Assembly: GCA_030727405.1 (NCBI GenBank)
Contig: JANRBR010000035.1
Location: 1 to 64,000, forward strand
DNA from: Crocinitomicaceae bacterium
Lineage (GTDB): Bacteria; Bacteroidota; Bacteroidia; Flavobacteriales_D; Crocinitomicaceae
Direction of reading: 5' to 3'
DNA: 64,000 bases
This document shows, in pieces, positions 10,788-55,083 of the stretch. The position numbers were made by a program, and so were the translations under genes. Below the pieces are notes generated by a model that worked only from the letters and a program-made list of their open reading frames with translations, was not told the DNA's origin and ran no database searches. Each line of letters begins with the position of its first letter. Within the stretch, counting starts at the first letter, position 1.

Positions 10788-12284
10788 ATGAATCAAGCAT
10801 ATATCATCGCAATATTAATTGCCTATTTCGGCATTTTATTGTTGATTTCACATTATACTTCCAAGAATTCTACTTCGCAAAGTTTTTTCACTGGTGATAA
10901 AAAAAGTCCATGGTATTTGGTGGCTTTTGGAATGATTGGAACGTCCCTTTCCGGGGTCACTTTTGTTTCCGTTCCAGGAACGGTCAGCGCGAACGGATTC
11001 TATTATTACCAAATGGTTCTCGGATTTTTCATTGGCTATTTTATCGTTGCTTATGTCCTGCTTCCACTCTATTACAAATACAATTTAAGTTCAATTTACC
11101 GTTATTTGGAGTACCGACTTGGATTTTCCGCTTACAAATGGGGCGCTGGGTATTTTATCTTATCCAGGACTTTAGGAGCAACCGTTCGACTCTACCTAGT
11201 AATCAATGTGCTCCAGCTTTTTGTATTTGATGATGTCGGCATTCCTTTTTGGCTTTCCACCATCATCATTATTGCCATGATCATTGCATACACCTTTCGC
11301 GGCGGGGTTAAAACGATTGTTTGGACCGACACGCTTCAAACCATTTTCATGTTATTGGCTTTGGTGGTGTGCATCATTTCCATTCAAGGTGAATTAAATT
11401 GGTCGTGGTCACATATTTGGAACGAAATGTCTGAAGGAGGCATGACGAAATTATGGAGTACCGATCCGTTGCGCAAAGATTTCCTATGGAAACACATCAT
11501 TGGAGGAGCATTTATTACCATTACCATGACTGGTTTGGACCAAGAAATGATGCAAAAAAACATCAGTGTGAAAAATTTAAAAGATGCGCAAAAGAACATG
11601 GTGGTATTTAGTTTTATCTTGCTTTTTGTGAATGCCTTGTTTCTTTTAATGGGTGGAATGCTGCAATTATTTGCCACCCAAAATGGTTGGGAATTCAAAC
11701 CGGATGATTTATTCCCTTCCATCGTGCAACAACACTTGCCTTTTGGGATTTTCATTATTTTCATCATCGGTCTGATTTCAGCACTTTTTCCTTCGGTTGA
11801 TGGGGCCATTACAGCCTTAACTTCTTCCTTCTGCATTGATATTTTAGGGTTTGAACGCCGGCAAGATTTAGATGAACAACGACGAAACTTCCTCCGAAAA
11901 GGCGTGCACCTTTCCTTTGCGTTCCTCTTCATGCTACTTGTCTTCTATTTTAAATGGATGGATAACAAAAGCATCGTAGACCTCATTTTTACCATTGCTG
12001 GATTTACCTACGGTCCATTACTGGGACTCTTTGCCTTTGGTATTTTAACAAAACGCAACATCAAAAACTACATGGTTCCCATCGTATGCATTCTGGCTCC
12101 GCTCGTTTGCCTAGGAATTACTTATGGACCAATGATTCTCACGTATTTCAACCCAAATTACGACCCAAAACAATGGCTTGGAGGCTATGCCTTTGGACAT
12201 GAAATGCTCATTTTAAATGGTGGACTGACCTTTGCCTTACTTTACTTAACGAGTTCAACTACAACTGAAAAAGCAGCAGCATGA
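10788..12284 (+). CDS. sodium:solute symporter family protein
   Basis: This 498-residue transporter of the SSS family has about 13 membrane segments. The region SPWYLVAFGMIGTSLSGVTFVSVPG (about residues 40-64) is the typical TM1/TM2 stretch with the sodium-site Ser/Gly, and GLDQEMMQKNISVKN plus SALFPSVDGAITALTS are also characteristic. The solute (sugar, acid, amino acid or vitamin) cannot be read from sequence. A near-consensus box TACGTTTC lies at 10769-10776. The stop overlaps the next ATG (ATGA), so it is coupled to the GlmU-like gene. Confidence 0.92.
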   Translation: MNQAYIIAILIAYFGILLLISHYTSKNSTSQSFFTGDKKSPWYLVAFGMIGTSLSGVTFVSVPGTVSANGFYYYQMVLGFFIGYFIVAYVLLPLYYKYNLSSIYRYLEYRLGFSAYKWGAGYFILSRTLGATVRLYLVINVLQLFVFDDVGIPFWLSTIIIIAMIIAYTFRGGVKTIVWTDTLQTIFMLLALVVCIISIQGELNWSWSHIWNEMSEGGMTKLWSTDPLRKDFLWKHIIGGAFITITMTGLDQEMMQKNISVKNLKDAQKNMVVFSFILLFVNALFLLMGGMLQLFATQNGWEFKPDDLFPSIVQQHLPFGIFIIFIIGLISALFPSVDGAITALTSSFCIDILGFERRQDLDEQRRNFLRKGVHLSFAFLFMLLVFYFKWMDNKSIVDLIFTIAGFTYGPLLGLFAFGILTKRNIKNYMVPIVCILAPLVCLGITYGPMILTYFNPNYDPKQWLGGYAFGHEMLILNGGLTFALLYLTSSTTTEKAAA

Positions 12285-13417
12285 AAATCAACCTAGACGA
12301 CAACGGATTACACTTACGCTTTGCTCCATTGACCTTGAGTCGACCGGTGGGGAATTTACGCATGGGAATCTACACCAACGATGAACGTTGGGAACGCTTG
12401 CTTCCGGATTGTGAAGTTGGATTCATCACGGAACCATTCCTTCAGTACCAGTTCCCGAAATTGGATACAGAAATTCGCGTGAATGCTCAAGTTATACCAA
12501 ACGAAGAAGTCGCAGCTTCCCTATTTGCTTTAGAAGAAGGATGTTCGCTCTACATGAACGGCCTTTTCATCGCTGAAAATGGCACTGGAAAAACCAAAAT
12601 CGAATACCTTGGAAATCCACCTATTGTAATTGAAAATCGTTGGGATTTATTTCAACAAAACGAAGCAGCCATTCAATTGGATTTCCGCTTAATTACGGAA
12701 GGTCGAGCATCACAAGAATTATCCAAAACGAACACACTCATTGGTCCAAGTGAGTTGCTTTTCATGGAAGAAGGTGCACTAGTGGAAGGAAGCATCCTGA
12801 ACACGACGCATGGTCCAATTTACATTGGTGAACATGCTGAAGTGATGGAGGGGTCGATGATCCGGGGTTCTTTTGTGCTTTGCGAAGACGCAGTGGTAAA
12901 AATGGGAGCGAAAATCTATGGAGCCACGACAATAGGACCTCATTGCCGTGTTGGTGGTGAAGTAAGCAATGTCATCCTGATGGCTTATTCAAATAAAGGC
13001 CACGATGGATTCTTAGGAAATTCTGTTATTGGGGAATGGTGTAACCTCGGAGCGGATACGAATTCATCTAATTTAAAGAACAATTACAGTTCCGTTTCTA
13101 GCTACAATTACGAATCAAAAAGCATGGAATCTTGTGATACCCAATTTATGGGGTTGTGCATGGGAGACCATTCCAAAAGCGCCATTAACACCATGTTTAA
13201 CACTGCTACGGTCATTGGATTTGCAGTGAATGTATTTGCGGATTCCTTTCCTCCAAAACACCTTCCTTCTTTTACTTGGTTAAATGGAAAGGATCAGGAA
13301 GTTTTTCGACTAGAAAAAAGCATCCAAGCAGCAAAAGCGATGATGGAACGTCGACACATTGAATGGAGTCAAGCTGATCAAAAGATCTTTGAACACCTGC
13401 ATCATATCCGTCCATAA
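12281..13417 (+). CDS. GlmU-like putative sugar nucleotidyltransferase
   Basis: This 378-residue protein has an N-terminal region of the Bacteroidota NTP_transf_4 type (opening with RFAPLTLSRPVGNLRMGIYTNDERWE) and a C-terminal left-handed beta-helix of hexapeptide repeats (about residues 170-320: GPIYIGEHAEVMEGSMI, VVKMGAKIYGATTIGP, NSVIGEWCNLGADTNSS). It is much shorter than classical GlmU (about 450) and lacks the LAAGxGTRM loop in recognisable form, so it may be a modified nucleotidyl- or acyltransferase or have another substrate. It is translationally coupled to the symporter. Confidence 0.85.
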   Translation: MKINLDDNGLHLRFAPLTLSRPVGNLRMGIYTNDERWERLLPDCEVGFITEPFLQYQFPKLDTEIRVNAQVIPNEEVAASLFALEEGCSLYMNGLFIAENGTGKTKIEYLGNPPIVIENRWDLFQQNEAAIQLDFRLITEGRASQELSKTNTLIGPSELLFMEEGALVEGSILNTTHGPIYIGEHAEVMEGSMIRGSFVLCEDAVVKMGAKIYGATTIGPHCRVGGEVSNVILMAYSNKGHDGFLGNSVIGEWCNLGADTNSSNLKNNYSSVSSYNYESKSMESCDTQFMGLCMGDHSKSAINTMFNTATVIGFAVNVFADSFPPKHLPSFTWLNGKDQEVFRLEKSIQAAKAMMERRHIEWSQADQKIFEHLHHIRP

Positions 13418-13440
13418 ACTGACTATTTTTCAGAAGAGGG

Positions 13441-13529
13441 AAGCATGGCACAATGCTTGTCCAACTAAGGAGACTTAGCTTACATGGGGATGATTTTGAA
13501 ACCCCCATGATTAACACTGACAATCTGTC
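13441..13529 (+). promoter_or_regulatory. structured leader upstream of lon
   Basis: The 126-base gap before lon contains three consecutive perfect inverted repeats: AAGCAT/ATGCTT (13441-13446 and 13453-13458, 6-base loop), CTAAG-GAGA-CTTAG (13465-13478, GNRA-type tetraloop) and CATGGGG/CCCCATG (13483-13489 and 13503-13509, 13-base loop). A short operator-like palindrome, GACA-ATC-TGTC (13519-13529), follows 14 bases before the ATG. No TAnnTTTG box is seen. lon is a stress gene in many bacteria, so a regulatory role is plausible but inferred. Confidence 0.5.
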
Positions 13530-13543
13530 GCAAAACTTAAGAT

Positions 13544-16003
13544 ATGAGTGATTTATTTGAACACGGTTTTTTTGGGGTATCTGGCATGGAATCAGATGCG
13601 GAATTCATTCCCTTAATTACCGCAGAGGAGGAGGAAAATGTCAATAATCAAGAATTCCCTTCGGAATTGCCAATATTGCCTTTGAGGAACAATGTTTTGT
13701 TCCCTGGTGTTGTCATTCCCATTACAGTTGGTCGTGATAAATCGATTAAACTCATCCAAGAAGCGAATAAAGGAAATAAAATCATTGGGGTTGTATCTCA
13801 AAAAAACCAAGAAGAAGAATCCCCTTCCTTTGATGATTTACACCGCATTGGTACAGTCGCTCAAATCGTTCGTTTGCTCAAAATGCCTGATGGAAGTTCA
13901 ACCGTCATCCTACAAGGAAAACGGCGCTTTGAAATCGTAAATCCGATCCAAACGGAGCCTTACATGCGTGCTACGGTGAACATTTTTAAAGAGGTTCCAT
14001 TTGAAAAAGGCAACCAAGAATTGGATGTCATGTTCAAAACAATCAAGGATTTAGCGCTTCAAATCATCCGTGAAAGTCCAAACATTCCATCGGAAGCACA
14101 ATTTGCCATCGGAAACATCGATAGCCCAACCTTTCTCGTAAATTTCATTTCTTCCAATATGAATGCGGATGTTGCTAAAAAGCAAGAAATGCTCGAAGAA
14201 ATGGACGTCAAAAAAAGGGTCATGATGGTCATGGAGCATTTGACATTGGAAGTTCAAATGCTTGAAATGCGCAACGAAATTCAAAACCGCGTGCGGAAGG
14301 ACCTTGACAAACAACAACGCGAATATTTTCTACATCAGCAAATGCGTACCATCCAAGATGAATTGGGGGACAATCCTCAAATTCAAGATGTGCGCGAATT
14401 TGAAGAACGTGCGAAAACAAAAAAATGGGATGACCGCGTTGAAAAATTGTTTTACAAGGAATTAGAGAAATTGCAACGCATGAATCCACAAGGAGCTGAG
14501 TACACCGTTCAAATGAACTATTTGGATGTGCTCTTAGACCTTCCTTGGGGAATTTACACCAAAGATAAATTGGATCTGAATCGTGCCAAAAAAATTCTTG
14601 AGAGGGATCATTTTGGGATGGAAAAAGTCAAAGAACGCATCTTGGAATACCTGGCTGTCTTAAAGTTGAAAGGCAACATGAAATCTCCGATTCTTTGCTT
14701 TTACGGTCCTCCGGGAGTTGGAAAAACGTCTCTTGGTAAATCCATTGCCGAAGCATTAGGAAGAAAATACATTCGAATGTCCCTCGGAGGGCTCCACGAC
14801 GAAGCAGAAATTCGAGGACACAGAAAAACCTACATCGGAGCGATGCCTGGTCGCGTCATGCAAAATTTGAAAAAAGCGGAAACAGCAAACCCCGTTTTTG
14901 TCCTAGATGAAATCGATAAACTCGGAAGAAACAACCACGGAGACCCTTCCTCTGCCCTGCTCGAAGTACTTGATCCAGAACAAAACAGTGCATTTTACGA
15001 TAATTACGTGGAAACGGAATTCGATTTATCTAAAGTTCTGTTTATCGCTACGGCAAATAACCTTAGCACCGTTCAAACACCTCTATTGGACCGAATGGAA
15101 ATCATTGAGGTGAATGGATACACCATCGAGGAGAAGATCGAAATTGCGAAACGACACCTGCTTCCTAAGCAAATAGCGGAACATGGCATTACAAAAGATG
15201 ACATTAAAGTGGATCGAAAAGTGTGGGAGAAAATTGTCGAGGAATATACGAATGAATCTGGTGTGCGCGGATTGGACAAAGTCACGGCGAAACTTGTGCG
15301 CAATCGCGCGCGTCAAATTGCCATGGAAGAATCTTTTGAGTCGAACATCAGCATGGCAGATCTTTTTACGTTCCTCGGCGCAGGAAGAGCACGAACGAAA
15401 TACCTTAATAATGAAACAGCCGGTGTGGTAACTGGACTCGCTTGGACATCTGTTGGTGGGGACATTCTATTCATCGAATCTTCCATTACCAAAGGAAAAG
15501 GAAAATTGACCTTAACCGGTAATCTAGGCGATGTGATGAAAGAATCTGCAGTAATCGCTCTAGAATATTTGAAAGGACACAGTGATTTATTAGGAATCGA
15601 ACAAGAAGTATTTGATGAGCACAACATTCACGTACACGTTCCAGAGGGCGCTACACCGAAAGATGGTCCAAGTGCTGGTATTACCATGCTAACTTCCTTG
15701 GCTTCTGTATTTACGCAACGTAAAGTGAAACTCAACTTGGCCATGACCGGCGAAATCACCTTGCGTGGTGATGTGCTTCCTGTTGGTGGGATTAAAGAGA
15801 AAATCCTTGCTGCGAAACGTGCAGGAATCAAAGAAATCATTCTTTGTACTAAAAACAAACAAGACATCGACGAAATCAAAGAGGAATACCTGAAAGGAAT
15901 TCGTTTTCACTTTGTACAGAAAATGTCGGAAGTACTAGAACTCGCACTCACGAAAGACAAAGTAAAAAACGCAAAGAAAATTGAACTTCCGAAAGCAAAG
16001 TAA
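13544..16003 (+). CDS. lon: ATP-dependent protease La (Lon)
   Basis: This 819-residue cytoplasmic AAA+ protease removes misfolded and regulatory proteins. The N-terminal substrate domain begins with [19 protein letters not shown] (about residue 43). Then come the helical linker, Walker [10 protein letters not shown] (about 388-396), Walker [10 protein letters not shown], the sensor region and the Lon protease domain with the catalytic Ser in [11 protein letters not shown] (about 705) and Lys in [14 protein letters not shown] (about 748). An acidic extension of about 40 residues precedes the LON domain. The stop shares a base with the next ATG (TAATG). Confidence 0.97.
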
Positions 16004-50287: not shown

Positions 50288-50408
50288 TTTGGATTGCGAA
50301 AATACAGATTTATTTTGAAGGACGAACACAGGAATGTAAGGTTACTCATTGTTGAGAAGTTGTTCAGAATATGTACGTGTAAAGCCACCAAATTAAGGAT
50401 CATTCCAT

Positions 50409-50416
50409 TAATTTTG
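50409..50416 (+). promoter_or_regulatory. trxB -7 box TAATTTTG
   Basis: This perfect TAnnTTTG box ends 21 bases before the ATG at 50438, giving a predicted leader of about 18 nt. It shows that an in-frame start at 50294 is too early. Confidence 0.6.
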
Positions 50417-50437
50417 TTGAGCAAAAACAATGAAGAC

Positions 50438-54229: not shown

Positions 54230-54330
54230 GGTTTAAAATTACAATTCTCTCCTCAAAATGTGCATTTTTAAGTAAAAAACAAGGATGTCAAGGTGGAAAA
54301 ATGTAACTTCGTTATTCAAATAAAGGCGAA

Positions 54331-55083
54331 TTGAAAAGACTGTTATATTTCTTATTGAGTGAACGACAATACCTCATGACATTGCATCGAAGTTTTTACT
54401 TCATGTACCGCCTTGGCTTATTGAAAAACAAACCCTCCTTCAAATTCCATTATTTCATTCAAAAAATCATCAAAGATGATTTTGTCGTGATTGATATTGG
54501 TGCAAATCTTGGGTATTTCGCCAAAACCTTTTCGCGTTTGGTTCCAAACGGAAAGTTAATTGCAATCGAACCGCTCCCTCAATTCCATGCGATTTTAGAT
54601 TACTTTATTGGAAAAAAAGAAAACGTCGAATTGCACAATGTGGCTTTGGGAAAAACCTCTGGTTCCATTACCATGGTTCTTCCAAAAACAAATGGAATGA
54701 TGCGCACAGGCTTGCCTCACATCATGAGAAATGAAAAAGAAGGTCAACATCAAACGACGCAAAACGTTCAAATGGTGAATACCTCTGCCTTCTTCAGTAC
54801 CTTTGAGCGAATAGACTACATAAAATGTGACATTGAAGGACATGAATGGGAAGTATTCAGTCAATTAGGTGAGGTTTTGAATCAAAAAAGACCAATCGTG
54901 CAAATTGAAATCGATTCAAGTAACACAGAAACCTTGTTATCATTTTTCAAGGACCTTAAGTATGTTCAACATGGTATTTCACATGGAAAGTGCATCATGG
55001 AAGATGGTCTACAAGCCGAACAAGGAGATTATTTATTCATCCCATCCGAAAAAACTTTCTTGGTGAACGAATGGAACGCTTAA
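54331..55083 (+). CDS. FkbM family SAM-dependent methyltransferase
   Basis: This 250-residue methyltransferase has the SAM-binding motif I FVVIDIGANLGYFAKTFSRLV (about residues 51-71), IAIEPLPQFHAILD (motif post-I), ELHNVALGKTSGSI, and YIKCDIEGHEWEVFSQLG of the FkbM group. Such enzymes O-methylate sugars or secondary metabolites. It begins with TTG; a near-consensus box TAACTTCG lies at 54304-54311. It overlaps the next gene by 13 bases. Confidence 0.88.
   Translation: MKRLLYFLLSERQYLMTLHRSFYFMYRLGLLKNKPSFKFHYFIQKIIKDDFVVIDIGANLGYFAKTFSRLVPNGKLIAIEPLPQFHAILDYFIGKKENVELHNVALGKTSGSITMVLPKTNGMMRTGLPHIMRNEKEGQHQTTQNVQMVNTSAFFSTFERIDYIKCDIEGHEWEVFSQLGEVLNQKRPIVQIEIDSSNTETLLSFFKDLKYVQHGISHGKCIMEDGLQAEQGDYLFIPSEKTFLVNEWNA

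Follow-up and report, generated by a model that had tools for sequence, protein, structure and literature searches.

The Leader of lon and Its Inverted Repeats

The window, by which we mean the whole stretch of DNA analysed (64,000 nucleotides), belongs to a Crocinitomicaceae genome of 2,233,639 bases in 42 contigs that is 99.75% complete. Its lon gene, whose closest named matches come from uncultured Crocinitomicaceae and Flavobacteriales, is separated by 126 bases (13418–13543, the gap size also given in a preliminary description of this DNA) from a gene with a sugar nucleotidyltransferase domain (12281–13417). The features of the region are as follows.

13421..13431, + strand: P-box GACTATTTTTC within CTGACTATTTTTCAG (13419–13433); degenerate, matching GACA-N3-TGTC at 6 of its 8 letters, with its first base 25 nt 5′ of TGGCA
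13441..13458, + strand: repeat 1, AAGCAT...ATGCTT, arms of 6 bp and a loop of 6; overlaps the promoter core and lies 5′ of the inferred start
13446..13459, + strand: putative sigma-54 promoter TGGCAC-AATGC-TTG, which fits the −24/−12 consensus; transcript start inferred near 13472
13465..13478, + strand: repeat 2, CTAAG-GAGA-CTTAG, arms of 5 bp and a loop of 4; straddles the inferred transcript start; not conserved
13483..13509, + strand: repeat 3, CATGGGG...CCCCATG, arms of 7 bp and a loop of 13; in the inferred 5′ UTR; not conserved
13518..13533, + strand: D-box TGACA-ATC-TGTC-GCAA, putative heat-shock box a short way 5′ of the lon start codon
13544..16003, + strand: lon, ATP-dependent protease (Pfam Lon_C 2.4e-81, LON_substr_bdg 8.2e-52, AAA 1.4e-26)

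The preliminary description had pointed out three perfect inverted repeats followed by a palindrome, and all were found at the positions that it gave; it was also right that no TAnnTTTG box is visible, none being present within 13418–13603. Its statement that no other gap of similar size in the window holds such a set turned out to be wrong: among the other gaps, delimited from mechanical gene calls, those at 50288–50437 and 54230–54375 hold four and five repeats, respectively. At least three such repeats occurred in 39 of 500 dinucleotide shuffles of the lon gap, an arm of at least 7 in 28 of 500, and the summed arm length of the actual repeats was reached in 7 of 500. Given these counts and the two richer gaps, the repeats are real, and as a set they are only mildly beyond chance. 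Folding, which the description had proposed as a check, gave a divided answer, with z = −2.74 for the gap alone (−1.56 for the opposite strand) and z = −0.75 for the longer span 13400–13620.

A Probable Sigma-54 Promoter Before lon

Among 90 distinct lon leaders taken from relatives (93 distinct leaders minus L083, L117 and L119, which are too short or not from Bacteroidota), 88 contain the pattern TGGCAY-N5-TTG, vs. a mean of 0.15 in 100 shuffling rounds. These leaders range from the genus of the window to Flavobacterium, Capnocytophaga and Brumimicrobium, and 10 of 11 further lon leaders from other genera of the order reveal the pattern as well. One of the two leaders that lack it, L045, has just 74 nt of leader. 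The window's own genome contains 58 matches to the promoter pattern vs. 30 for the reversed control; 55 of them were read, and six are intergenic according to mechanical ORF calls, including those before lon, htpG and dnaK (the products of the latter two were identified by Pfam as HSP90 and HSP70, respectively). A promoter of the sigma-70 type was also considered and rejected: there is a single 9/12 match, at 13496–13524, and the 1,401 bases scanned have two such matches in all vs. 2.9 in shuffles.

We consider it highly probable that a sigma-54 promoter stands before lon, and in the species of the window sigma-54 would be expected to use it. COG0466 denotes the Lon protease. A survey of sigma-54 published in 2025 predicts, for Flavobacteriia, control of chaperone and ATP-dependent protease genes including COG0466 (PMC12316311). 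The 5′-end map of F. psychrophilum places sigma-54 starts before lon, groESL, dnaK, grpE-dnaJ, htpG and clpB (PMC9723704). Since starts have been mapped at the same genes and the gene class has been predicted, the lon promoter is a new member of a sigma-54 regulon already known.

Fate of the Hairpins in Related Leaders

For the repeats and the palindrome the preliminary description had offered three roles, namely a heat-shock operator, a thermosensor and a small RNA. The first of these is supported, for the palindrome only (see below), and the two RNA roles are not. The conservation and covariation check that it had proposed was run on 12 distinct leaders, the window's own row included, chosen for a Lon identity of 94% or more and a length of 130 nt or more. 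Repeat 1 retains 6/6 pairs in 10 of these and 5/6 in the remaining two, so that 97% of cells are paired, with no two-sided change in the set. Repeats 2 and 3 fall apart, with 54% and 27% of cells paired, respectively, and full pairing of both is restricted to the window's own row. The covariation of the described structure is 0.093 vs. 0.103 in shuffles, none of it above the shuffles. When the structure is slid along the alignment as a control, it has 58.1% of cells paired vs. at most 37.7% for the slid versions, repeat 1 making up most of the excess, and its covariation is likewise above that of the slid versions; such an advantage is to be expected of a structure derived from one of the aligned sequences. 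Three long blocks of the alignment show no variation: CTGAC-n-A-n-TTTTCAG, CATGGCACAATGCTTG and TGACAA-nn-TGTCG-n-AA.

The conservation of repeat 1 is due to its overlap with the core of the sigma-54 promoter. By eye, more distant relatives have the promoter but not the dyad of repeat 1. Sigma-54 promoters start transcription about 12 nt past the −12 element, a geometry that puts the transcript start near 13472, which would leave repeat 1 untranscribed and cut repeat 2. The description had named a promoter and start excluding the hairpins as grounds for giving up its reading; with this inferred start, that applies to repeats 1 and 2, and repeat 3 would still be transcribed.

An RNA reading could draw on the folding of the gap, which beats its shuffles (z = −2.74), and on that of the inferred 5′ UTRs (presumed start to ATG), which fold slightly better than shuffles: z averages −1.20 across 79 leaders and is −1.54 in the leader of the window's lon, values that stand by themselves with no control set of other 5′ UTRs. 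The latter may reflect a weak general folding tendency of inferred lon 5′ UTRs. Against it stand the disintegration of repeats 2 and 3 in the closest leaders, the position of repeats 1 and 2 wholly or partly 5′ of the inferred start, and the origin of the slid-control excess, most of which is repeat 1 in a structure drawn from one sequence. The search of Rfam over the window gave no match at the gathering score. Three matches in 13380–13620 with E of 3.4–4.5, far below the gathering scores and from families of eukaryotic type, were taken as chance. The thermosensor was rejected on leader conservation and pair counts, no conserved or covarying stem being found in the transcript, and we regard a thermosensor or a small RNA as very improbable here.

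The inverted repeat 5′ of the −24 element was considered as a terminator of the upstream gene and dismissed, as most Crocinitomicaceae leaders have no T-run there. Hairpins with a T-run were seen by eye at that site in several Flavobacteriaceae.

A Conserved Box in the Leader and Coding Sequence of lon

The palindrome TGACAATCTGTC lies at 13518–13529 with the core GACA-ATC-TGTC at 13519–13529. The form TGACANNNTGWCNYAA has two matches in the own genome, one 5′ of lon and one 5′ of grpE (GrpE, Pfam 3.7e-43), and its reversed control has one. A degenerate form of the D-box, defined after inspection of the same lon leaders, is found at most 70 nt from the lon start in 69 of 90 leaders vs. a shuffled mean of 0.11 (100 rounds), and it sits 14–49 nt before the start codon in these 69. 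Nine of the 21 leaders without it constitute one subclade with short 5′ UTRs (L013–L020, L025), and several of the others are one letter off. Set against the leaders of relatives, the palindrome exceeds chance by a wide margin. The operator-like character noted in the preliminary description is thus upheld by conservation in 69 of 90 lon leaders and by recurrence at other heat-shock genes. In our estimate the box GACA-N3-TGTC is quite likely a binding site for a heat-shock regulatory protein.

The P-box is less regular. Its region CTGAC-n-A-n-TTTTCAG is invariant in 12/12 closest leaders; over the wider set, at least 6 of 8 letters of the box are present in 24/87 lon leaders at offset −24 from TGGCA and in 29/87 at −25. 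By mean score for lon alone, offset −24 ranks eighth and −25 fifth.

In lon genes of the Flavobacteriaceae type, a further box lies within the coding sequence and is read as Asp-(Ser/Asn)-Leu-Ser. Of 24 distinct leaders in this identity class, 17 belong to genes that encode Asp-(Ser/Asn/Thr)-Leu-Ser. All 17 have a leucine codon of the form NTG (15 TTG and 2 CTG, with a background of 28% and 5%, respectively), and the serine codon is TCA in 17/17 (background 16%). Among the other seven, the box is missing from four and replaced by GACAACTTGAC in one, and two retain GACA-N3-TGTC while encoding a different peptide. Such uniform codon choice points to selection at the DNA level on the in-gene box, the 17 genes being related and not 17 independent events.

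The Box at Other Heat-Shock Genes

Across the own genome the looser pattern TGACANNNTGWC is hardly enriched, with 21 matches vs. 12 for the control. Seven of the 21 were tagged as intergenic, and one of these (L192) proved to be inside a reading frame. The six intergenic sites are at lon, grpE, htpG (divergent from another gene), groES, the topA-miaB gap and a DUF2480 gene, and that in the topA-miaB gap stands 5′ of the miaB-bEBP operon discussed below.

The leaders of grpE, htpG and groES were read in 30 genomes each, out of 54, 52 and 57 with a match, respectively. With a loose TGGCA-type anchor, 88/93 lon, 13/30 grpE, 30/30 htpG and 28/30 groES leaders could be placed; with a stricter anchor the numbers are 87/91, 12/30, 25/30 and 23/30. 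The box with at least 6 of 8 letters stands at −24 from TGGCA in 29/30 htpG, 11/12 grpE and 14/28 groES leaders. With the stricter anchor, all 256 palindromic half-sites were scored at 176 offsets outside the promoter core over the four gene families. GACA at −24 is the best of these 45,056 combinations, with a mean of 5.64 of 8 (lon 3.08, grpE 6.83, htpG 7.24, groES 5.39) vs. a mean of 2.00 and an sd of 0.49 for all tests; these are not independent trials, as the leaders share ancestry and a grpE or groES leader entered its set only if it had the anchor. The leaders of four unrelated genes nevertheless agree on one slot for the box.

A search of 60 genomes for the composite GWCANNNTGTC-N13-TGGCA gave 47 matches vs. 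6 for the reversed form, 30 of them directly 5′ of htpG and 8 of grpE. Nine lie elsewhere. Two of the nine (L339 and L343, in genomes G049 and G054, from two other families of the order) precede frames that look SecA-like by eye; in their first 60 residues one gives SecA_DEAD at 7.9e-5, below the curated cut-off, and the other has no match. One in G037 resembles, by eye, a grpE leader split across two contigs. The other matches outside htpG and grpE may be due to chance.

The promoters themselves are not uniform. Strict TGGCAY-N5-TTG is found in 0/30 grpE and 0/30 groES leaders. In grpE, 13/30 leaders have TGGCAG-N5-TTG, several with an embedded TATCTTTG box like a sigma-A −7 element, and the groES promoters have a variant −12 element. 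The dnaK leader of the own genome lacks a box at −24; a box-like sequence lies ten bases further up. For clpB, 260 nt of the own genome contain neither a box nor a promoter match and its likely true start region is unconvincing by eye, and it was rejected as a member of the regulon there.

Some further observations concern individual leaders. About 40 nt 5′ of the ATG in grpE leaders such as L223 and L224, TGGCAGTATCTTTG fits both the sigma-54 pattern TGGCAG-N5-TTG and the sigma-A −7 element TATCTTTG, and two grpE promoters seem to share the same bases. A further copy of the box, GTCAGTATGTCA, is present in 26/30 groES leaders, inside what appears by eye to be the secG terminator stem; in the own genome, the secG-groES gap (L240:7620-7700) has a terminator-like hairpin with a box in its stem. 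Also in the own genome, TGACAGTCTGTCGCA at L244:1163-1221 (C39) lies 5′ of the DUF2480 gene of unknown function (Pfam 4.5e-68), possibly another gene of the heat-shock regulon.

A Candidate Binder Linked to groESL

Three strong matches to PF00158 among nine in the own genome, all with AAA+ lid domains, represent three sigma-54 activators. The first has a receiver domain and no recognised helix-turn-helix, and the second has an N-terminal part without a Pfam match. The third (hereafter the bEBP) is a receiver-less protein of 414 aa with a sigma-54 AAA+ domain and a Fis-type helix-turn-helix. Its gene lies in the order miaB-bEBP-lptE-(unknown)-secG-groES-groEL, where Cpn10, Cpn60, LptE and SecG were identified by Pfam and miaB by eye (radical-SAM and TRAM domains). 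Regions upstream of groES were obtained from 36 of 57 genomes, of the window's genus and others of the order, and miaB, bEBP and groES follow one another in this order in 34 of 36; the two exceptions have neither miaB nor the bEBP in the stretch, which in one is just 2.7 kb. A strict box lies 47–69 nt before miaB in 22/34 leaders, and 12/34 have no strict box.

The end of the bEBP helix-turn-helix, LGISERTLYRKIKE, is identical to that of the own genome in all 31 other orthologues of the alignment (32 proteins, own included). The linker averages 44% identity, and an invariant helix-turn-helix end beside a variable linker is as expected from an invariant binding site. HrcA was not found in the own genome, and a scan of the window that allowed up to 3 mismatches gave no CIRCE-like site. 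In view of the groESL-linked, receiver-less bEBP, its invariant helix-turn-helix end and the missing HrcA, we propose the bEBP as the binder of the box. A conserved dyad common to the lon, htpG, grpE, groES and miaB leaders is what one would look for in a bEBP enhancer. Its position, in a slot 24 nt 5′ of TGGCA with further lon and groES boxes elsewhere, is not the distant, loosely spaced one that such an enhancer would be expected to take.

At L241:1138-2304 (C18) the own genome encodes a response regulator with a sigma-54 activator domain that has GAFTSA for GAFTGA and no recognised DNA-binding domain; it is perhaps no longer a classical activator.

Proposed Mechanism and Alternatives

The promoter, the box, its recurrence, its preferred slot and the synteny can be read directly from the genomes compared. 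Building on them, we suggest that the lon leader is a sigma-54 heat-shock control region whose box is bound by the groESL-linked bEBP, and for this reading as a whole we see the case as evenly balanced. Sigma-54 RNA polymerase would bind TGGCAC-N5-TTG at 13446–13459. A regulator that recognises the dyad GACA-NNN-TGTC would occupy the D-box close to the lon start codon and, with a weaker hold, the P-box a short way 5′ of the −24 element, and the same box would serve htpG, grpE, groES and the miaB-bEBP-lptE-secG-groESL cluster. As its binder, the PspF-like receiver-less bEBP of that cluster is the likeliest candidate. In response to proteotoxic stress the bEBP would start lon transcription by remodelling the closed complex, and through the box in the cluster it would also act on its own operon. 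Binding of the bEBP to the box, the sense of regulation and the use of sigma-54 in this species are what we infer from sequence; that free chaperone is the signal is a conjecture. A broader and more tentative proposal, which we favour somewhat less, makes the groESL-linked bEBP the master heat-shock regulator of Flavobacteriales, working from GACA-N3-TGTC in a fixed slot, feeding back on its own operon, probably restrained by free chaperone and replacing sigma-32/HrcA.

Several points tell against the bEBP model. Enhancers of sigma-54 activators usually lie further upstream with loose spacing, whereas here the slot is fixed near the promoter and the best lon site is downstream of the promoter. 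The putative P-box of lon is degenerate and split between −24 and −25, and the D-box form is missing in 21/90 leaders. The strict promoter in 0/30 grpE and 0/30 groES leaders, the deviating dnaK and clpB of the own genome the 12/34 miaB leaders without a strict box, the low ranks of both offsets for lon alone and the slight genome-wide enrichment of TGACANNNTGWC also argue against it. The box might be the operator of another stress regulator, for instance a repressor released by heat, that damps sigma-54 promoters and overlapping promoters of the sigma-A type, the bEBP acting through another site or none. A fixed slot next to the promoter and a site beside the start codon, both seen here, are common for repressors, and in the own genome a TATCTTTG box that resembles a sigma-A −7 element stands 3′ of the grpE box, as TAAATTTG does of the miaB box. 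However, HrcA, the best-known candidate, is absent and the window has no CIRCE-like site, while the bEBP operon itself has a box in its leader (22/34), which speaks for the bEBP; we consider another regulator possible but rather unlikely.

The D-box of lon could instead work as RNA: as a small hairpin or a protein site, it would govern translation from the start codon next to it. Its steady distance of 14–49 nt before the ATG in 69 leaders, while the distance to the promoter varies, and its ability to fold as a stem of 4–5 bp would be in line with this. Yet htpG and grpE have the same dyad 5′ of their promoters, in DNA that is not transcribed, the TGAC form (TGACANNNTGAC) is common in Flavobacteriaceae although it disrupts the stem, and the in-frame copy in lon lies past the start codon. 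Control at the RNA level therefore looks improbable to us. Under the reading with the bEBP, the odd lon leader would be explained as a promoter plus a box at the start codon, without an RNA switch.

Comparison with Known Systems

The closest parallel is the sigma-54 (motif SM4) regulon of F. psychrophilum, in which lon, groESL, dnaK, grpE-dnaJ, htpG and clpB likewise stand behind −24/−12 promoters (PMC9723704). That genome has three PF00158 proteins, and by locus-tag order a probable sigma-54 regulator followed by LptE (THC0290_0733-0732) is near groESL (THC0290_0729-0728) (PMC9723704). In its treatment of co-expression clusters the paper suggests that they might reflect distinct activators, with no operator named and no activator assigned there (PMC9723704). 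The GACA-N3-TGTC box, its slot and the tie to the groESL-linked bEBP are what the present work adds. The sigma-54 regulon survey, in its account of these genes, describes promoters and gives no heat-shock operator or binder (PMC12316311). A search of the main texts of open-licence papers found no shared operator or assigned activator for these genes. In short, sigma-54 promoters at chaperone and lon genes of Bacteroidota are known; the shared box now offers a concrete candidate site for their control, and the protein encoded beside groESL an equally concrete candidate for the regulator.

PspF and other receiver-less bEBPs consist of a sigma-54 AAA+ domain and a Fis-type helix-turn-helix. The groESL-linked bEBP shares with them this architecture and a box in the leader of its own operon, and differs in its tie to heat-shock genes and in having the box at a fixed slot near the promoter. 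Such a fixed close slot would be unusual for a sigma-54 activator; if true, a slot 13 bp upstream of the −24 element could reveal promoter-proximal action of an activator. HrcA/CIRCE is another system in which chaperone genes have a common dyad operator, sometimes beside the start codon. The likeness of the present box lies in exactly these two traits, and the difference in its sequence and in a genome without HrcA, the window being free of CIRCE-like sites. If the master-regulator reading holds, Flavobacteriales would have an enhancer-type heat-shock system with its own operator in place of sigma-32 or HrcA.
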